Assembly (NCBI RefSeq): GCF_001661265.1
Contig: NW_017567014.1
Span: forward strand, 186,001 to 250,000
Reading direction: 5' to 3'
Source: Saitoella complicata NRRL Y-17804
Taxonomy: Eukaryota; Ascomycota; Saitoellomycetes; Saitoellales; Saitoellaceae
DNA length: 64,000 bases
The position numbers and the translations under genes were made by a program. Positions 53,570 through 64,000 of the stretch are shown piece by piece (the first letter of the stretch is position 1; each line of letters opens with the position of its first letter). Under the pieces are notes generated by a model. It ran no database searches, had not been told where the DNA came from, and was given only the letters and a program-made list of their open reading frames with translations.

Positions 53570-55639
53570 CTATTCCTCAACAGCAGCCTTCTTACTCTTC
53601 TTTCTCCTCTTCCTCTTCCCACTCTGCTCCCCATTCTCCTCTCCTCCCTCAACCGCCTCACCCACATCCTCCCCCTTCGCCTCCGCCTCCGCCGCAGCCC
53701 TCTGCTGCCTCATCTTCTCCCTCTGCGCCTTCTCCACCTCCTTCCCAAACACCTCCTGCCTCCACTGCTGCAACCTCTTCTTCTTCGCATACTTCCTCTT
53801 ATCCTTCATCACCTGCTCCCTCGTCCTAAACGGATTCAACTTCTTCAAACCAATGAATTCGTTGAGTTGGGTGTCGTCCGCGAGGAGGATATCGGCGGGT
53901 GAGAGACCGAAGTCTTCGGATTCGACGGTGCGGTATTTGAAGCGGGTTGGGAGGTCGCCGATCATGTCTTCGTAGTCGAGTTGGTAGTGGTTGTCAATAT
54001 AGTCGTCGAGTTTTCGCTTTTTGTCCAGAATCTCCTTTCTCTTTTCCTTGCGGGAGGTTCTGGCTCTCTCGCCCTCAACGGCATAGTCCGCATCCATGAT
54101 GATTTCCTCCCCATTCTCGTCAACCATAGTAGCCGGCTTGTTCTTCGCGTTCTTCTTGCTGAATTCAGGCACGATATCATCGATATCAATATCATCATCA
54201 AACGTCGGCTTCGTATCCTTCCCCTCATAATACTTATCATCAAAAGCCTCCTGCATCTTCCGATCCCACCTCTCCGGATCAAACTCCCCCTCCAAATCAA
54301 CATCATCAAACGGCACCGTCTCACTCCCCGTAATCTCCGCAATCTTCTTCAACTTCTCCTCAATCTCCTTCCTCTTCAAATTCTTCAATCGTCGCAATTC
54401 TTCGAGTTTCTGCTGTTTCTCGAGTTCTTTGCGTTCGTTGCGGGCGTCGCGTGCGGCTTTGCGTTTGTCATCTTTGCGGCGGACGGAAGTTATGTTACGG
54501 GCGTGGCCGACGATGTCTGCTGCGCCGGCTTCTTCGTAGCGGAAGTTGTAGGCGTTTTCGAAGTGGTCTACGCGGTCGTCAAATTCATCTTCGTCTTCCT
54601 GGACGATCTCGTCGTACGTGGGAACTCTCGAAGCATCCTTATCCATCCATCCACGGTTCATGATGAAGTTCATCAAGAACTCTTCACCCTTCTCTTCGTC
54701 ATCGTAGGCGACCTCGGTGACCTTGATATCCTTATCCTTCTTCGCTTTGTCGAGCCATTGCTTCAATTCCTCGTCGCCAGCGGCTTCGATCAAGAACTTC
54801 TTGTACCCATCCTCTTCGTCCGCCATCTCCTCGTTTCCCTTCTTCCTCGCTACGAGGAGATCGTCATCATCCTCATCCTCCTCCGCACCAGCATGGAACG
54901 CACTCGAGATCTCAGCCTTGAGTTTCGCCTGTTCCTGCACGTGGGTCATATCATACTTCTCCCTCATTTGTGCACCAAAATCCGCGTCCGCGTCAGCCAT
55001 GTCTTCATCCTCATCTCCCCCTCCCTCCAAAAGATTTCTGCGGTGGTAATCCTTGAGGAACATGGGTTTACTCTCCTTCGCCTTCTCTCTCGCCTCCTTC
55101 CTCTGCTTCTGAAGTTCCCTTTCCGCCTCCTCAAAGTTGAATGGCTTATCTTTGTCGAACAACTCCTTATCCCCCGACCTAATCTTCGCAATCGTCTTCA
55201 AGATAGCGGCATCAACGGCCGGCGTCAACAACTCTGCATCCTCATCCTCCGTCTCGTCTTCCGAATCGGTCTCAGAATCTTCATCATCCTCAGGGTCTTC
55301 CGCGTTGACGAGATCACGCGCATGCTTCACCTCGAGACGTTGGCGTTCTTCACGTTCCTTGTTATGCTGGAACCGCTTTGCGTAATCCTCGTTAATCTTC
55401 AACTCCCCGAGATCCTCCTCATCCGACTCATCCAAGAATCCATTGCCTCCCTTCTTCGTCTTCTTCTCCACGGGAGCGGGAGCGGGGGCGAATGGGGCGG
55501 AGGTAGTGTTCTTGAGGTGAGCGACGACTTCGTCGGAGACGACAGCCTCCTCACGGGCCTTGCGAGCGGCGGACTTCTGCAGAGGATGTTAGACATAGAA
55601 ATAAAGGAGATGAAGGAGTTTACTGACCTTCCTGGGCAT
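53570..55639 (-). CDS. KRI1: Ribosome biogenesis protein Kri1
   Basis: Exon 1 is 12 nt (55628-55639, MPRK); exon 2 is 53570-55576; the intron 55577-55627 (51 nt) has GTCAGT, CTAAC and GCAG. The product is 672 aa. It is highly charged, with alternating acidic runs (LDESDEEDLGELKINEDYAK, DDEDSETDSEDETEDED) and basic coiled segments. The Kri1 core (AYDDEEKGEEFLMNFIMNRGW) precedes the C-terminal conserved segment EDMIGDLPTRFKYRTVESED, FGLSPADILLADDTQLNEFI, GLKKLNPFR. It ends in a Lys/Arg nuclear-type tail. Yeast Kri1 is an essential nucleolar factor for early 40S pre-ribosome processing, with Krr1 as a partner. The glucoamylase stop is only 62 bp from this one. Confidence 0.92.
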
Positions 55640-56672: not shown

Positions 56673-58145
56673 TTAGAACTGGTATCGGAACTCCAACTCC
56701 TCATCCCCAGTCTTCCCAGCAAAATTACTCGCATCAGCCCCAGGCGTCTGCTCAACCCTATCCCTCTCCGCATTCAACCTCTTCAAATGAATGTACATAA
56801 ACACATACCCAACGACAGCTACACCCATCGCACCCACACTCGTTCCATACCCCACCCAATACCTCGGACTCTGGTAGTAAATCTGTCCAGCGACGACACC
56901 ACCAAGATTACCGAGCGATTGTTGAATTCCGACCGCAGTGGCACGTTTGTAGTGTCCGGCAACGTTGATGTTGAGCCAGCCCAGGTTGAGACCGGGACCA
57001 ATGTAGACTCCGGCTGCGATGAGGAAGGTTGCGAAGTAGAGTACGCCGGCTTTGGTGACGGTGAGGAAGAGGATGTAGCCGATGATCATGATGATGGACA
57101 TCACCAGCAAAATCCCGAAACGCTTCTTGGTGCGATCGGCGATGATGGCGACGACGATGAAAGTGAAGGAGCCGAAGAGGTAGACGGGGACGGTCAAGAG
57201 CTGTGCGTGAACGGAGGAGTAACCCATTGCGCGGATAATTGCGGGCAAGAAGGTAGAGAAGCCGTACAGGGAGATATCGGCGCAGAACTGGATAACAGCC
57301 GAAAGCCAGACTTTAGGGTCACGAGCGGCCTTACGAGTCTCGGCCCAGTCGAATTCCTCCGATCCACGGTAGCGAGCGGTGATTTCTTGACGGGCCCTGA
57401 CCAAAGCCCTCTCGTCCTCGTTTAAGAACCACGCGAGCTTGGGGTCGTCGGGGAGTGTGAAGTACACGAGGACAGCGACGAGGATAGAGAAAGCACCCTC
57501 GATGATATAAAGCCACCTCCATCCCGCATACCCACCAACGCCATCCATATGCGAAATACCATACGCGATCAACCCACCGAAAGCACCAGACACGGCGGCG
57601 GCGGTAAAGAGGTACGAGAGACGCTTCGACTGCTCTTCACGCTTGTAGACCATGGTGAGGTACAAGTTAAGCGAAGGGAAAAGACCAGCTTCGCATGCAC
57701 CCATAATGAGACGCACCGCGACGAGACCAGCGTAGTTGTGCACGAAACAGGTGAAGATGGTACACAGCGACCACGCAATCACCGCACACGGGATCATCCG
57801 CGAGGGACGAATAATCTTGAGCAACAATGCCATCGGTGTCTCGAAGAGACAGTATGTGATGTAGAAAATCGATGTAGCGACGTTGAATTGCGAACCCACG
57901 AGACCAAGGTCTTCGGGCATGCCTTGGATTTTGGCATTTCCGATGTTGGATCTGTCGAGGAAGGAAACGAGGTAGAGGAGGCCGATGAGGGGGGTGAGAA
58001 CGAGATCGAGTTTGAACAAGAGTTTCTTTTCGGCGACGGGGTCGATGTAGATGTCGCTTGAGGATACTGCCTCGGGGGAGCGGTCACCAGAGTTGGTGAG
58101 CTCGAGGTCTTCGTTGTTGAGTTGTTTCTCGGCAGCCATGACCAA
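56673..58145 (-). CDS. MFS transporter, anion:cation symporter (Dal5-like) family
   Basis: An intronless 490-aa frame, MVMAAEKQLNNEDLELTNSG to GDEELEFRYQF (a start at 58139 is equally possible). It has 12 predicted membrane spans, with the family motifs LTPLIGLLYLVSFLDRSNIG in TM1, RLIMGACEAGLFPSLNLYLT in TM4, and GWRWLYIIEGAFSILVAVLV in TM6. Relatives carry allantoate, nicotinate, pantothenate, dipeptides and other small carboxylates with protons. It lies beside two enzymes of 5-oxoproline metabolism and shares an upstream motif with them, so a 5-oxoproline, glutamate or related amide-acid substrate is plausible (inference). The two copies of GGTGGAGCCCCTC in inverted orientation lie 300-410 bp upstream of its start. 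Confidence 0.88.
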   Translation of the reverse strand: MVMAAEKQLNNEDLELTNSGDRSPEAVSSSDIYIDPVAEKKLLFKLDLVLTPLIGLLYLVSFLDRSNIGNAKIQGMPEDLGLVGSQFNVATSIFYITYCLFETPMALLLKIIRPSRMIPCAVIAWSLCTIFTCFVHNYAGLVAVRLIMGACEAGLFPSLNLYLTMVYKREEQSKRLSYLFTAAAVSGAFGGLIAYGISHMDGVGGYAGWRWLYIIEGAFSILVAVLVYFTLPDDPKLAWFLNEDERALVRARQEITARYRGSEEFDWAETRKAARDPKVWLSAVIQFCADISLYGFSTFLPAIIRAMGYSSVHAQLLTVPVYLFGSFTFIVVAIIADRTKKRFGILLVMSIIMIIGYILFLTVTKAGVLYFATFLIAAGVYIGPGLNLGWLNINVAGHYKRATAVGIQQSLGNLGGVVAGQIYYQSPRYWVGYGTSVGAMGVAVVGYVFMYIHLKRLNAERDRVEQTPGADASNFAGKTGDEELEFRYQF

Positions 58146-58444
58146 ATAGTTGGAAGGGTTCGAGAATGTTGGAGATCAATTGGGTATGCGGTCTTGCTTA
58201 TAACCTCGTCGCGTATGAAGTCGTGGTCGGTCGAGATAAGAAGTGTCAATCACTTGATCAAGGCGAAACGGCGACAACCGCGGGACCACCCTCCCGAGAT
58301 GAAATAAGGATGGACACCGATTCGGTGATACGGGCGGTCCAAAGGTGGGGTTAGCTATGACCAGCCCCGAGCGCTTTCGATAAGCCTACGCAACATTTCC
58401 AAGGTTGTTTGGTGTGTGTAGATCTTGGTAGGGTTGACGGGGCG

Positions 58445-58457
58445 GGTGGAGCCCCTC
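58445..58457 (+). promoter_or_regulatory. GGTGGAGCCCCTC motif, copy 1
   Basis: Exact 13-mer GGTGGAGCCCCTC, 300 bp upstream of the transporter start; the same 13-mer occurs inverted 83 bp further upstream. It matches sites in the DUF1445/5-oxoprolinase promoter. Confidence 0.45.
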
Positions 58458-58540
58458 CGTAGCGCGCGAATGTCCAGATAAAGGTGCACTAGACCCAGCA
58501 GCGAGACCATCGAAAAAATCATGCGATGAAGGGGGTGATA

Positions 58541-58553
58541 GAGGGGCTCCACC
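58541..58553 (-). promoter_or_regulatory. GGTGGAGCCCCTC motif, inverted copy 2
   Basis: Minus-strand reading is the same 13-mer as 58445-58457, giving an inverted repeat with an 83-bp spacer. Confidence 0.45.
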
Positions 58554-59337
58554 TGAGGTTCATCTCCGGTTCATTTTCTGTGCGGAGGAAAGTTCTGGGT
58601 AGTGCGGGTGGAAGCCTGGACCTGCTCACGAAGCAATCTGACGTGAAGGAAGAGTAAGGGAACAGTAACACCGAAGCCTATACACCTCCAATCAAAGCCC
58701 ATAGCTAGTAGTGGTAGGCCCGCGTAATCACCTACCAAACCCATCCTATACTCTGGGACCGGCACGCCTCGCCTAGCTTCAGCTTCCCACACTGTTTTAG
58801 CGTTGAGACCCGCTAATCCTCGCTCCGCGGACCTTGTGTGTGTGTGAAACGAACGGCATCTGAGAAATTACAATTCGAATACTGATACTGTACCCGAGCG
58901 GTGCTCCTCCTCTTCTTCCTCGGGAAAGCGGAGACATGCGCTTTCATGAGCAGCTTGCAATTGCTGAGACTTGAGGAGCGAGCTTGCTTGAGATGCCCCG
59001 CGTGTCGATTGCGGCGGGGGGGTGCCGGGAGGGGCACCGCTCGGGTGAAAAATCTCCGGTCCTGTGACATGATGAGAAAAGTTTGGAATTGATCTGATAT
59101 GAGTGTCAGATTGAGGGTGATAGAGGGGTAGACTGCTTGTGCGTAATAGGATCTTGGGTCCGGCTGGTGATGGGAGGGGAAGGGGTAGGGGTATGGGAAG
59201 TCTGGACCTCGAAAGTCTGGAGACGAGATCCAACGGCCAGCCTTCTCACGGCGCTGAGTAGCACTTGCAATCATAGGATAACGACAAGTTCACTGACTCT
59301 TATAACAATACTCTTACACTCCCCTGTCCATCTCTAT

Positions 59338-60312
59338 CTACTCCTCCTTCTTCACGACATCCCAATCCCTCGCATCAAGCACAACCATATGCCCCGGCGC
59401 ATGTCCCATAACAACCCCCTCCAATCCCGCCCTCATAACCGCTTCCTGTGGCGTAACCCCACACGCCCAAAACACCGGAACATTCTCCTCATCCCCCTCC
59501 ACCTCACTCAATTTCCTCCCATCCAAGGTCAAAGGAGCATCTCCCCACTCCGGGGAATCAATGGAAGAGATACCAAGGGTGCGGAGGGCTGACCAACCCC
59601 AGGCGATGGGTTCGCCGTGGGTTGCGGTGTAGGGACGGGTTATTGTGCGGGTGGATTCGATGAGGTGGCGGGGGTAGGGACGCATGGAGACGACGTAGGT
59701 GCTGCCTGTGAAGGCACCCGCGGGGCAGAGTGGAACAGTGGTGCGATACATCGGTACATTCCTGTTCATGACCGTATGCCGGGGTGCGAGACCACCAGAC
59801 GTAAGCGCGGACTCGAAAGAGTACGAACAGCCGATGAGGAACGCGACGTGGTCTTCTGTCCATTCTTCCATCACGTCAGGACATTCGAACTTGATCAACT
59901 TTCCATCCCGGTAGACCATGTAGCGCGGTGCGTCCCTTCTGACATCAAACTCCGCTGCCACGCTGCCATCTTCCACGCCTTCGATCCAGCTCTTTAGCCC
60001 GCTCCAGTCTCCCACAGCCGCGCTCTCTGCCAACAGGGGACACGGTACTGGGTTCCGTGCGCAAAGGAGACGGAAGTCTGGGGCGTAGCGAGAGGGAAGG
60101 ATGAGGAGGTTTGCTTGGAGGTAGGTTGGGGCTAGGCCGGAGGTCGAGGTTGTGTAGGTGTTGTCGCGGGCTGCGAGGCGGGCGGAGAGGCCGGTTGGGT
60201 AGGGGGAGGAAGGAACTCCATTGGAGGATTTCGTTGACTTCGTAATCGCAGGCTCGGTGGTCTGTGAAGGGACCGTGGTTGGGTCAATTGTGACTTGTAG
60301 TGATGGTGCCAT
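59338..60312 (-). CDS. DUF1445 protein, D-glutamate cyclase family
   Basis: An intronless frame; from the ATG at 60312 (MAPSLQVTIDPTTVPSQTTE) it is 324 aa. After a Ser/Thr-rich start of about 40 residues comes the whole DUF1445 core: PTGLSARLAARDNTYTTSTS, GLAPTYLQANLLILPSRYAP, FRLLCARNPVPCPLL, DVRRDAPRYMVYRDGKLIK, VAFLIGCSYSFESALTSGG, NRNVPMYRTTVPLCPAGAF, VVSMRPYPRHLIES and FWACGVTPQEAVMRAG, ending GHAPGHMVVLDARDWD. Vertebrate mitochondrial DGLUCY with this domain converts D-glutamate to 5-oxo-D-proline; bacterial YcsI belongs to the same family. No clear mitochondrial targeting peptide. It is divergent from 5-oxoprolinase. Confidence 0.88.
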   Translation of the reverse strand: MAPSLQVTIDPTTVPSQTTEPAITKSTKSSNGVPSSPYPTGLSARLAARDNTYTTSTSGLAPTYLQANLLILPSRYAPDFRLLCARNPVPCPLLAESAAVGDWSGLKSWIEGVEDGSVAAEFDVRRDAPRYMVYRDGKLIKFECPDVMEEWTEDHVAFLIGCSYSFESALTSGGLAPRHTVMNRNVPMYRTTVPLCPAGAFTGSTYVVSMRPYPRHLIESTRTITRPYTATHGEPIAWGWSALRTLGISSIDSPEWGDAPLTLDGRKLSEVEGDEENVPVFWACGVTPQEAVMRAGLEGVVMGHAPGHMVVLDARDWDVVKKEE

Positions 60313-60801
60313 GTTGATCGCGTAGAGATAGAGAGAGGGTAGGATGTTGGTATCGACGAAGTGGAGGGAGGTGAGAGCGGTTTTGACTGATCTCACGGAA
60401 GACTGTCCACCGGCGTCGGATATCTTACCCGGCCCTTGAGAGTGGAGCTCCAGTATCTATCATACCACATCGCCTCGCACTCGCAACCCATTTTCCCGAG
60501 GTGGATCAACAAGTGGAGCTCCATCGAGCGGCGGCGTCTCATCTCCCTTGACGGAGCGATATGCCTATCTCGGGGTCCGAGCGCGCCCAAAGTGGAGCCC
60601 CGCCTTGCTCGGCCCCACATGTCCATGTACCCACCGCTGCCACACTGTAAGGTCCCGGAGGAGCTCCTCCCCATATCTGGCATTACCGAACGATCCGGTT
60701 ACTCGGTGTATCGTCAACCATCAACCTCCTCCTCCAAGTGATCGGACTTGTCAAGATACTCGCCGGAAGTACTTATACCCCCCTCCTCCTCCTCGGCCGA
60801 A
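60313..60801. promoter_or_regulatory. Shared divergent promoter with GTGGAGCYCC sites
   Basis: 489 bp between the DUF1445 start (60312) and the 5-oxoprolinase start (60802). It holds GTGGAGCTCCA at 60442-60452 and 60513-60523, GTGGAGCCCCGCC at 60592-60604, and a palindromic GGAGGAGCTCCTCC at 60657-60670. The clustering within 230 bp and the match to the transporter upstream sites suggest a binding site for a pathway regulator. Confidence 0.5.
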
Positions 60802-63800
60802 ATGTCTCCATCAACGGATCAGATCCATACACACACGAACAATAACGACATGGTCGACAAATCACTAGCAATCAGAATCTCTATCGACCGTGGAGGCACC
60901 TTCACAGACGTCCACGCCTCCATCCCAGGCCGTCCGGATGTCATCCTCAAGCTCCTCTCCGTCGATCCCTCTAATTACAAAGATGCCCCCACCGAGGGAA
61001 TTCGTCGAATCCTTGAGATCGCGACGGGAACTCCACACCCCCGTGGCGAGCTCCTGGATCTACGACATGTGGAGGCGGTAAGGATGGGTACGACGGTTGC
61101 GACGAATGCGTTGTTGGAGAGAAAGGGTGCGCGGAGTGCATTGCTTATTACCAAGGGCTTCAAAGATTTGCTTGGCATCGGAAACCAATCCAGACCCAAG
61201 ATCTTTGATTTGTCTGTTGCGAAGCCGGATGTGCTATACGAGAAAGTCATTGAGGTGGACGAGCGTGTCACCCTCGAAGGCTACGCCGAGAACCCGCGCC
61301 CACAACCCATCGACGTCAACTCTGACTCTGCTCTCCGCAAGGGCATCACCGGCGAAGTCGTCCGCGTCATCAAGACGCCGGACATGGAATCCGTGAAGAA
61401 GAGCTTACAAGAATTGTGGGATGACGGATTCAGAAGTATTGCGGTGGTCATGCTCCACTCTTACACTTACCCCGAACACGAGAACATGATCGCGAACGCC
61501 GCGATCGAGATGGGATTCTCGGTTGCGATTTCGGCGCAATTGCAGCCTATGATTAAGGCTGTTCCCCGTGGTACCTCTGCCACTGCCGACGCTTACCTCA
61601 CCCCCGTCATCAAGACCTATATCGACTCCATTTCCTCGAATTTCCGCGGCGGGTTGGGAAGTCACGGATCCAGATGTGAGTTCATGCAGTCAGATGGTGG
61701 TCTCGTCGATTTCCGCAAGTTCTCCGGTCTCAAGGCCATCCTCTCCGGACCCGCTGGTGGTGTCGTCGGATACGCTCAGACCTCGTACGACGAAGAGGAG
61801 AAGGTCCCCGTTATCGGATTCGACATGGGTGGTACTTCGACGGATGTTTCCCGTTATGGAGGAATCTACGAACACGTCTTCGAGACCACCACGGCTGGAG
61901 TCTCCATCCAGTCTCCTCAACTTGACATTAACACCGTCGCGGCTGGTGGTGGATCCATGCTTTTCTGGCGTAACGGCCTTTTCGTCGTGGGACCCGAGTC
62001 AGCCTCCGCCCACCCTGGACCAGCATGCTACAGAAAGGGCGGTCCCTTGACGGTGACCGACGCCAATTTGTTCTTGGGAAGGTTGTTACCGGAGTACTTC
62101 CCCAAGATCTTCGGTCCCAACGAAGACGAGCCCCTCGATCGTGAGACCACGGCGAAGAAATTCGCGGAGTTGACGGTGCAGATCAACGAGGAGCAGCGCG
62201 CGAATGGTGGATCCGAGTTTACGCCCGAGGAAGTTGCGCTCGGGTTCTTGAAGGTCGCGGACGAGTCGATGTGTCGTCCCGTTCGTACCCTCACTGAGGC
62301 TCGTGGACACGATACGTCTGCGCATAACCTCGCTTCTTTCGGTGGTGCAGGTGGTCAACACGCCTGTTCCGTCGCTGACGCACTCGGTATCTCGAGGGTT
62401 GTTATCCACAAGTACTCCTCTATTCTCTCTGCCTATGGTATGGCCCTTGCGGATGTCGTGCACGAGGTTCAAGAGCCGGCTGCTACATCGTTCGATGCGG
62501 AGACCAAGGAGGAGGTCAAGGCTAAGTTGCACGAACTCATGGAGAAAGCCACACAAGAACTCTTGAGCCAGGGCTTCGAGGCAAACCAGGTCAAGCACGA
62601 AGTCTACCTCAACATGCGCTACCATGGCTCCAACACCGCCCTCATGATCCTCAAGCCTGAAGCCTCCGAAGACTGGGATTTTGGCGCAGAATTCACGAAG
62701 AGACATCAGCGCGAGTTTGGGTTCACGTTTGATTCCAAGGCGATTTTGGTTGATGATCTTCGTGTTAGGGCGATTGGGGCTTCGTTTGCGACGGGGGAGG
62801 TTAGCCCGTATCAGCAGATGAAGGCGGTGGAGGGGAAGGAGGTTAAGGTTCCTGAGGCGGATGGTACAACGAAGGTTTACTTTGGTGCGGAGAATGGGCG
62901 TGTTGACACTCCTGTCCATCAACTCCAGAGCCTCGAGGCTGGTGCCAAGATTCAGGGTCCGGCGATGATTATTGATCAGACGCAGACGATTGTGTTGGTG
63001 CCTAACGCTACTGCTCATATTTTGGAGAGGTGCGTTGTGATTGACTTGGGCGAGAAGAAGACGATTGCGTCGCAGTCTCAGCAGGAGGAGATCAAGATCG
63101 ATCCCATCCAGCTCTCGATTTTCGGACATAGATTTATGTCGATTGCTGAGCAGATGGGTCGCACCCTCCAGAAGACTTCCGTTTCGACCAACATCAAGGA
63201 GCGTCTTGACTTCTCTTGCGCGTTGTTCTCGCCTGATGGTGGGTTGGTCGCCAACGCTCCGCACGTTCCCGTGCACTTGGGATCGATGCAGTATGCGGTC
63301 CGCTACCAGCATAACTTGTGGAAGGGGAAGTTGAAGGATGGTGATGTCTTGGTTTCCAACCACCCTATGTGTGGAGGTACCCACTTGCCTGACATCACTG
63401 TCATCACTCCTGTCTTCGACAACGGCGAGATCGTCTTCTACGTCGCATCTCGTGGTCACCACGCTGATATCGGTGGATGCTTGCCGGGATCTATGCCTCC
63501 CACTTCCACCGAGCTCTGGCAGGAGGGCGCAGCCATCGAGGCCGAGAAGATCGTGTCTGAGGGCAAGTTCAACGAGGAGAGGATGACCGAGCTCTTGCTC
63601 AACGAGCCTGCCAAGTACGACGGCTGCTCCGGTACCCGTTGCTTGCAGGACAACTTGTCTGACCTCAAGGCTCAGGTCGCTGCCAACACCAAGGGTATCT
63701 CCCTTATCAAGGCCCTCATCGAAGAGTATGGATTGAAGTGCGTTCAGACGTACATGTTCGCCATCCAAAAGAACGCCGAGGTCGCTGTCCGCGAGCTCTT

Positions 63801-64000
63801 GAAGCGTATGTACAAGAAGTTCGAGGGACAGCCGCTCGAGGCGATCGACTACATGGATAACGGTACCCCCATCGCGCTGAAGGTTACGATCGATGGTGAG
63901 AAGGGTGAGGCTGAGTTTGACTTTACCGGCACTGGACCTGAAGTCTACGGTAACATCAATGCTCCTTCTGCCATTACGCATTCTGCTCTCATCTACTGTT
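60802..64000 (+). CDS. OXP1: ATP-dependent 5-oxoprolinase (3' end beyond the window)
   Basis: The frame is open from the ATG at 60802 (MSPSTDQIHTHTNNN; 60850 is an alternative start) to the right edge, giving 1066 residues of a protein usually near 1280. The hydantoinase-A half starts with the nucleotide motif ISIDRGGTFTDVHASIPGRP, and has VRMGTTVATNALLERKGAR, VIGFDMGGTSTDVSRYGG and NTVAAGGGSMLFWRNG. The hydantoinase-B half starts at about residue 770 and has SIFGHRFMSIAEQMGRTLQK, ERLDFSCALFSPDGGLVANA and SRGHHADIGGCLPGSMPPTS. The enzyme opens 5-oxo-L-proline to L-glutamate using ATP, in the glutathione cycle and in pyroglutamate use. Its neighbour supplies 5-oxoproline from D-glutamate. No intron is visible. 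Confidence 0.93.
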   Translation, partial: MSPSTDQIHTHTNNNDMVDKSLAIRISIDRGGTFTDVHASIPGRPDVILKLLSVDPSNYKDAPTEGIRRILEIATGTPHPRGELLDLRHVEAVRMGTTVATNALLERKGARSALLITKGFKDLLGIGNQSRPKIFDLSVAKPDVLYEKVIEVDERVTLEGYAENPRPQPIDVNSDSALRKGITGEVVRVIKTPDMESVKKSLQELWDDGFRSIAVVMLHSYTYPEHENMIANAAIEMGFSVAISAQLQPMIKAVPRGTSATADAYLTPVIKTYIDSISSNFRGGLGSHGSRCEFMQSDGGLVDFRKFSGLKAILSGPAGGVVGYAQTSYDEEEKVPVIGFDMGGTSTDVSRYGGIYEHVFETTTAGVSIQSPQLDINTVAAGGGSMLFWRNGLFVVGPESASAHPGPACYRKGGPLTVTDANLFLGRLLPEYFPKIFGPNEDEPLDRETTAKKFAELTVQINEEQRANGGSEFTPEEVALGFLKVADESMCRPVRTLTEARGHDTSAHNLASFGGAGGQHACSVADALGISRVVIHKYSSILSAYGMALADVVHEVQEPAATSFDAETKEEVKAKLHELMEKATQELLSQGFEANQVKHEVYLNMRYHGSNTALMILKPEASEDWDFGAEFTKRHQREFGFTFDSKAILVDDLRVRAIGASFATGEVSPYQQMKAVEGKEVKVPEADGTTKVYFGAENGRVDTPVHQLQSLEAGAKIQGPAMIIDQTQTIVLVPNATAHILERCVVIDLGEKKTIASQSQQEEIKIDPIQLSIFGHRFMSIAEQMGRTLQKTSVSTNIKERLDFSCALFSPDGGLVANAPHVPVHLGSMQYAVRYQHNLWKGKLKDGDVLVSNHPMCGGTHLPDITVITPVFDNGEIVFYVASRGHHADIGGCLPGSMPPTSTELWQEGAAIEAEKIVSEGKFNEERMTELLLNEPAKYDGCSGTRCLQDNLSDLKAQVAANTKGISLIKALIEEYGLKCVQTYMFAIQKNAEVAVRELLKRMYKKFEGQPLEAIDYMDNGTPIALKVTIDGEKGEAEFDFTGTGPEVYGNINAPSAITHSALIYC

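Follow-up and report, generated by a model that had tools for sequence, protein, structure and literature searches.

In the pxpABC operons of the ycsI type (on Klebsiella, Haematobacter and Lactiplantibacillus plasmids, among others), a DUF1445 gene adjoins genes for a 5-oxoprolinase and a transporter. The same three kinds of gene lie side by side near the right end of the 64,000-nucleotide stretch of the fungus Saitoella complicata NRRL Y-17804 analysed here (contig NW_017567014.1, positions 186,001 to 250,000, forward strand; "the window" below), but in the bacterial operons the oxoprolinase is PxpABC, which is unrelated to the fungal enzyme, and the transporter is of the NRAMP type. A preliminary description of this locus had drawn the parallel with Bacillus; it is weaker for the transporter, since YcsG of Bacillus is reported to import Mn2+ (PMC10448178), yet its relative PxpT, 50% identical to YcsG, is described as required for growth of Corynebacterium glutamicum on 5-oxoproline (PMC13274462). 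The pxpTABC system of C. glutamicum likewise combines dedicated uptake with ATP-dependent opening of the 5-oxoproline ring, and differs in its unrelated enzyme and transporter, in its known GntR repressor, and in that DUF1445 does not appear in the gene set named in that report (PMC13274462). The vertebrate D-glutamate cyclase (DGLUCY, 9030617O03Rik) has DUF1445 in common with the fungal protein (PMC5339696), but it is mitochondrial and carries an extra DUF4392, whereas the fungal protein consists of DUF1445 alone. In the wine-yeast region B (Zygosaccharomyces bailii), a 5-oxoprolinase gene adjoins a major facilitator superfamily (MFS) gene of the D-galactonate/nicotinic-acid type; this region differs in having transcription-factor and FLO11-type genes, and DUF1445 is not among the five genes listed for it (PMC7212421). 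Finally, bacterial clusters of DUF1445 with a fused 5-oxoprolinase-type gene (OXP), found in this work (loci L069, L072 and L125-L130), contain the same two enzyme families as the fungal locus but differ in their transporters: six have a TRAP transporter, and the MFS proteins of the other two are of the 2A0115 type, compared with 2A0114 in the fungus.

The fungal genes occupy three uninterrupted reading frames at 56673-64000, arranged as follows.

56673..58139, reverse strand: MFS transporter, 488 amino acids; first ATG at 58139, frame 56673-58175
58140..59337, no strand: region 5' of the MFS gene and 3' of the DUF1445 gene; two GTGGAGCYCC sites
59338..60312, reverse strand: DUF1445 (PF07286) protein, 324 amino acids, single domain; first ATG at 60312, frame 59338-60456 (372 amino acids)
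60313..60801, no strand: divergent promoter region of DUF1445 and OXP, 489 bp; three GTGGAGCYCC sites
60802..>64000, forward strand: fused (A+B) ATP-dependent 5-oxoprolinase-type gene, OXP; ATG at 60802, frame 60742-63999

The reading frames and Pfam matches agree with the earlier account of three neighbouring genes, including a full DUF1445 protein (the PF07286 profile is matched over positions 1-143 of 143) and a DUF1445 gene and OXP that diverge over a common promoter region, with 489 bp between their first ATGs. The end of the window truncates OXP, of which 1065 residues are visible, and gives no DNA to its right.

We interpret these genes, with a probability of about two in three, as a small fungal catabolic cluster for 5-oxoproline. 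The MFS protein would import 5-oxoproline or a related carboxylate, and OXP, judging by its family and active-site residues, would convert 5-oxo-L-proline to L-glutamate with ATP. The DUF1445 protein would be an accessory enzyme that channels D-configured material such as that of peptidoglycan, be it D-glutamate or 5-oxo-D-proline, into this route, whether by cyclisation of D-glutamate, racemisation of 5-oxoproline or hydrolysis of the D ring. Such an accessory role on the D side is likely. One common factor, binding the GTGGAGCYCC sites observed, may control all three genes. The cluster is real and is of a kind that has bacterial counterparts; what is new here is the common motif, the repeated linkage of DUF1445 with OXP, and an argument about the name of DUF1445. 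That the arrangement goes beyond chance follows from the motif test and the bacterial linkage test given below. Glutamate and glutamine give rise to 5-oxoproline non-enzymatically, and bacterial cell walls can be a source of the D form; to our knowledge, hardly anything has been established about the cellular use of D-5-oxoproline.

The best sign within the window that the transporter goes with the two enzymes is the motif GTGGAGCYCC, which has five copies in the 64,000 bases (both strands), all five of them upstream of genes of the trio:

58446..58455, forward strand: GTGGAGCCCC site, 307 bp before the MFS start codon
58543..58552, reverse strand: GTGGAGCCCC site, orientation reversed, 404 bp before the MFS start codon
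60442..60451, forward strand: GTGGAGCTCC site in the palindrome TGGAGCTCCA, 130 bp before the DUF1445 start
60513..60522, forward strand: GTGGAGCTCC site in TGGAGCTCCA, between the DUF1445 and OXP starts
60592..60601, forward strand: GTGGAGCCCC site, 210 bp before the OXP start

Because the motif was first spotted by eye, the test runs over every 10-mer that contains no more than one R or Y, occurs at least twice in each of the two regions and is absent elsewhere, and scores the best of them; the real pair of regions scores 5. Among control pairs drawn left of 56000, coding sequence included, none of the 1500 that preserve the spacing and none of the 1455 placed at random reached this score (a score of 4 occurred 4 and 2 times, respectively), and 1000 dinucleotide shuffles of both upstream regions gave no qualifying motif. 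The flanks of the five sites have little in common beyond the ten bases, and the copies therefore resemble binding sites more than the product of a duplication. The trio is thus very probably co-regulated, as far as a common upstream motif can indicate this, which is in line with the single co-regulated module that had been proposed for these genes. Fungal catabolic clusters are recognised as adjacent, co-regulated transporter and enzyme genes, and the adjacency of the trio together with its exclusive motif points to a cluster of this sort. Sites of known regulators, namely GATA (9), CreA-like SYGGRG (19) and a TGACTC in the two regions, were considered as an explanation and rejected as too common; the window has 115, 365 and 24 of them, respectively, and we base no claim on them. 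The GTGGAG part of the motif fits what we take to be the CreA consensus, and it is the longer word that is exclusive to the trio.

The second test concerns bacteria. We surveyed 398 Pseudomonadota genomes, calling a fused OXP of the fungal type at E<=1e-120. DUF1445 was found in 64 genomes (67 places) and fused OXP in 85, and 20 genomes have both. The two genes lie within 5 kb of each other in 8 of these 20, whereas about 0.04 would be expected at random (Poisson P about 2e-16, with rounded genome sizes). All eight OXP-linked DUF1445 loci adjoin a transporter gene, which is TRAP in L069, L072, L125, L127, L128 and L129 and MFS in L126 and L130. The order in L130 is DUF1445-MFS-OXP on one strand, and L072 and L128 are laid out divergently, as in the fungus, the matched segments being 228-295 bp apart. 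In another genome, G381, DUF1445 and a DctP-like gene are found towards the end of contig C38, and OXP lies close to where C39 begins; this is possibly one cluster split by assembly, and it was left uncounted.

The binding proteins of L069 and L072 also favour a 5-oxoproline theme. The best solved relatives of the DctP proteins of L069 and L072 are 2pfz/2pfy (E 1e-96 and 6e-99); only 6wgm is otherwise near, the next structure following at E 6e-23 and 8e-25, and the DctP proteins of L127 and L128 are of the same kind (64% and 86% identity). We take 2pfy and 2pfz to be the pyroglutamate-binding DctP pair of Bordetella pertussis. Two such receptors have been crystallised with pyroglutamic acid, according to a passage of a review in which entry codes are absent (PMC5812351).

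Fused OXP is one of two oxoprolinases to which DUF1445 is tied. When PxpABC, fused OXP and DUF4392 were sought within 8 kb of DUF1445 at the 67 Pseudomonadota loci, PxpABC was found at 26 (two of them also with DUF4392), fused OXP at eight and DUF4392 alone at three, and no locus had both oxoprolinase types near DUF1445 at these thresholds. In the Synergistota, where 72 DUF1445 matches occur in 68 of 100 genomes, we took 40 regions, with matches mostly full-length and off contig ends, and 38 of them have PxpABC genes near DUF1445. That DUF1445 is repeatedly tied to two unrelated enzymes with one activity strongly hints that the substrate or product of DUF1445 is that of the oxoprolinase, and turns a role of DUF1445 in 5-oxoproline metabolism into a simple assay question. 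DUF1445 probably feeds pyroglutamate or D-glutamate into glutamate recycling. The 5-oxoproline theme, to which the preliminary description had assigned the locus, is supported by the tie and by the nearness of the L069 and L072 DctP proteins to 2pfy/2pfz.

The fungal OXP has Hydant_A_N, Hydantoinase_A, Hydant_A_C and Hydantoinase_B in a single frame, so that the A and B parts are fused; Hydantoinase_B is visible to profile position 286 of 519, where the window end cuts it. OXP is 43-45% identical to fused bacterial homologues across 1038-1039 residues. In an alignment of the visible part to caprolactamase, from which the roles of the residues were taken (PMC8453981), OXP keeps the ATP-site aspartates Asp29 and Asp341 and the metal tetrad Asp803, His861, Asp864 and His886; these residues are common across the wider family and do not distinguish OXP from hydantoinases. 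PxpABC-like sequence was not found in the window by tblastn with PxpA, PxpB, PxpC and PxpBC (best E 0.22). The MFS protein matches Pfam MFS_1 at E 3.7e-45, and its top NCBIfam model, of 11, is TIGR00893 (2A0114). Its earlier designation as a Dal5-type transporter is a fair one in view of that best model, but a soft one, since the 210 bits obtained lie below the curated cut-off of 395. Its nearest solved structures are chains of the D-galactonate transporter, 6e9n/6e9o, at E 8e-10 and 2e-9. We rejected the idea that the fungal and bacterial cluster MFS proteins are homologous transporters: the 2A0115-type proteins of L126 and L130 match the fungal one weakly in BLASTP (E 0.67 and 1e-4).

The DUF1445 protein matches PF07286 (D-Glu_cyclase) at E 1.3e-54 and keeps 52 of the 54 columns that are conserved to at least 95% among 125 sequences, including Cys91, Cys162, Cys284, Glu167, His232 and His304. 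Cys162, Cys284 and His304 are jointly replaced in three rows (L169, L170 and L172) and retained in the other 122 of 125. Those three rows are the DUF1445 genes of G295, G375 and G298, genomes that have a fused OXP elsewhere, and they form a subgroup with perhaps a different or lost activity. A predicted model built with 64 sequences has a mean pLDDT of 89.6 and the fold of 2pif/3db9. The NrpR-like protein MJ0159 also matches this model weakly, though significantly (3nek, E 4e-5, TM 0.32-0.49), a similarity that we note and do not use; the NrpR-like family senses 2-oxoglutarate. An internal duplication of DUF1445, in which the halves would pair Cys162 with Cys284, was considered and rejected at P 0.13.

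The preliminary description had stated that vertebrate DUF1445 proteins are D-glutamate cyclases. This overstates the case, since the mouse protein has both DUF1445 and DUF4392, and the conversion of D-glutamate to 5-oxo-D-proline is reported for the whole protein (PMC5339696). DUF1445 is named for an activity demonstrated only in a two-domain vertebrate protein. In S. complicata, DUF4392 is absent from the DUF1445 protein (Pfam, 372-amino-acid frame) and was not found in the window by tblastn with one DUF4392 protein (best E 3.1). Among the papers listed we saw no assay of a stand-alone DUF1445 protein; other work on bacterial DUF1445 may be in print. The mismatch between a D-specific and an L-specific enzyme that the preliminary description had pointed out is real.

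How, then, might DUF1445 act? The version proposed earlier, in which DUF1445 is a D-glutamate cyclase and D-glutamate is broken down via 5-oxo-D-proline with the help of a racemase not seen here or of an oxoprolinase without stereospecificity, is possible but doubtful. It accords with the Pfam name of PF07286, 'D-Glu_cyclase', with the activity described for the DUF1445-containing mouse protein (PMC5339696), and with three bacterial loci (L065, L077 and L148) in which DUF1445 occurs with DUF4392 and a class IV aminotransferase like D-amino-acid transaminases; the best NCBIfam matches of these aminotransferases are indeed D-amino-acid transaminases, but all fall below the curated cut-offs. The DUF4392 of the active mouse protein is missing from the fungal protein and was not found by tblastn in the window or in the eight OXP-linked loci, and no racemase was seen among 30 chosen Pfam-scanned frames of those loci or 23 frames of the window. 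Moreover, a cyclase followed by an oxoprolinase is circular, because an oxoprolinase that accepts the D form would only regenerate D-glutamate at the expense of ATP, and an L-specific one would leave the product stranded. By this argument, which is new here, the accepted name of DUF1445 fails to explain the cluster. Alternatively, DUF1445 might racemise 5-oxoproline without a cofactor and so make the D form available to an L-specific oxoprolinase, in which case the vertebrate cyclase activity would belong to DUF4392; we regard this, too, as rather unlikely. It would close the stereochemical gap and suit the pairing of DUF1445 with either oxoprolinase class, the joint loss of Cys162, Cys284 and His304 in three rows fits a single active site, and Cys162 and Cys284 each lie at a strand-to-helix turn of the predicted model. 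Also in its favour, the conservation of DUF4392 is described as extending to vertebrates and invertebrates, and that of DUF1445 to vertebrates only (PMC5339696). On the other hand, Foldseek with the model gave no racemase fold, the only matches at E<=0.001 being 2pif and 3db9 of its own family and the weak NrpR-like one, the alignment of the Cys162 and Cys284 halves reaches only P 0.13, and a third near-invariant cysteine, Cys91 (123 of 125), would suit a metal or Fe-S site equally well. A metal site built from all three cysteines is as open a possibility as a two-cysteine racemase. The fuller proposal is put forward as speculation: stand-alone DUF1445 would be such a racemase, acting through Cys162/Cys284 and His304, repeatedly paired with two unrelated L-specific oxoprolinases so that both hands of pyroglutamate become usable, and its Pfam name would have been mis-transferred from an activity of DUF4392.

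It is quite improbable that DUF1445 is an ATP-independent hydrolase that turns 5-oxo-D-proline into D-glutamate, with a transaminase or oxidase providing the pull, while OXP handles the L form in parallel. This would be the reported cyclase reaction run backwards, and DUF1445 does lie beside genes of the D-amino-acid-transaminase-like kind at three loci, but a strong pull would be needed, as the equilibrium favours the ring, and no gene for the removal of D-glutamate was present in the scanned frames near the eight OXP-linked loci. Least probable, in our view, is that the three genes are chance neighbours or serve another lactam or a hydantoin. The hydantoinase/oxoprolinase family acts on several lactams (described in PMC8453981), the nearest solved relative of the fungal OXP is labelled N-methylhydantoinase, and in Agrobacterium one DUF1445 gene has a dihydropyrimidinase gene as its neighbour (L066); yet chance is at odds with the exclusive common motif and the repeated bacterial linkage, and another lactam with the pairing of DUF1445 with PxpABC, which is reported to be a 5-oxoprolinase (PMC13274462).

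Several observations weigh against a 5-oxoproline cluster as we describe it. We infer the substrate and the stereochemistry of all three fungal proteins, and linkage in fungi rests on one window and on print, the published fungal passages showing no genomic linkage. In Schizosaccharomyces pombe, discussed below, SPAC11D3.15 is only presumed to be a 5-oxoprolinase gene. The fungal MFS protein and those of the bacterial clusters fall in separate subfamilies (2A0114 and 2A0115), and the DctP proteins of L125 and L129 are only about 26% identical to the 2pfy-like ones. Neither oxoprolinase nor DUF4392 lies within 8 kb of DUF1445 at 30 of the 67 Pseudomonadota loci, 12 of the 20 genomes that have DUF1445 and OXP do not carry them within 5 kb of each other on a single contig, and DUF1445 went unmatched in 65 of the 85 genomes with OXP, so DUF1445 is not essential to the oxoprolinase. 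In addition, tblastn with the fungal OXP gave no match at E<=1e-5 in the loci of the 12 bacterial DUF1445 relatives (39-47% identical to the fungal protein) from our first scan; the eight linked loci came from the wider survey. The loci without a partner include L073, L138, L140-L143, L145, L146 and L149, several of which form one tight clade.

Published data from yeasts also favour the cluster reading, namely the oxoprolinase-MFS neighbours of region B (PMC7212421) and expression results for S. pombe. In growing cells of the klf1 mutant, the S. pombe DUF1445 gene, SPAC5H10.01, is reported as the sole transcript reduced by a factor of more than six, and SPAC11D3.18c as one of only two other transcripts that are down (PMC3805531); the latter is labelled a predicted nicotinic acid transporter (PMC4614384). 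High copper specifically lowers nine genes, most of which were ascribed to amino acid metabolism, and SPAC5H10.01, SPAC11D3.18c and SPAC11D3.15 all belong to this set (PMC1929147). In Aspergillus fumigatus, a DUF1445 gene is down-regulated in the gprK mutant and listed with peptide, nitrate and ammonium transporters (PMC5008803). Having a promoter motif of its own, the S. complicata cluster provides a genetic system in which the function of DUF1445 can be approached.

To follow the linkage through the family, tree A was built from 123 of the 125 DUF1445 rows (two second copies were omitted) and tree B from 60 Pseudomonadota rows and the fungus, omitting L163, L168, L169, L170, L171, L172 and L173. 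Linkage to OXP changes (gains or losses) at least five times in each tree, and well-supported branches force four of these changes in tree A and five in tree B; the PxpABC-linked L135 and L137 are sisters of the OXP-linked L069 and L127. The earlier view that the fungal cluster follows the same logic and was independently assembled is consistent with the trees, but the fungal row has a long terminal branch (1.75-1.8) and its placement is unsure. We do not claim transfer of the cluster from bacteria as a block, the fungal DUF1445 lying outside the OXP-linked rows with the same uncertainty.

Other contexts of DUF1445 genes were also observed. L077:4482-8735, L148:3888-8729 and L065:7013-10257 bring DUF1445 together with DUF4392 and a gene of the D-amino-acid-transaminase-like kind, with genes like PxpB/C in between in L077 and L148; these loci may encode a D-glutamate route, and they represent a natural split of the vertebrate two-domain protein. 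On the Agrobacterium plasmid, the DUF1445 gene lies beside the dihydropyrimidinase gene (hydA) and ABC transporter genes (L066:4805-8199), a context that hints at a hydantoin-related role for some DUF1445 members. Operons of PxpABC with DUF1445 are found on plasmids (L061 and L062), and that of L062 may be mobile, because insertion sequences flank it. Among 72,556 plasmid records, 237 match the fungal DUF1445 query, of which 93 are from Klebsiella. Within the fungal window, a chosen set of 20 large frames outside the trio showed no evident link to amino-acid catabolism and no racemase in Pfam, and the left neighbour of the cluster is a KRI1-like gene at 53570-55588.

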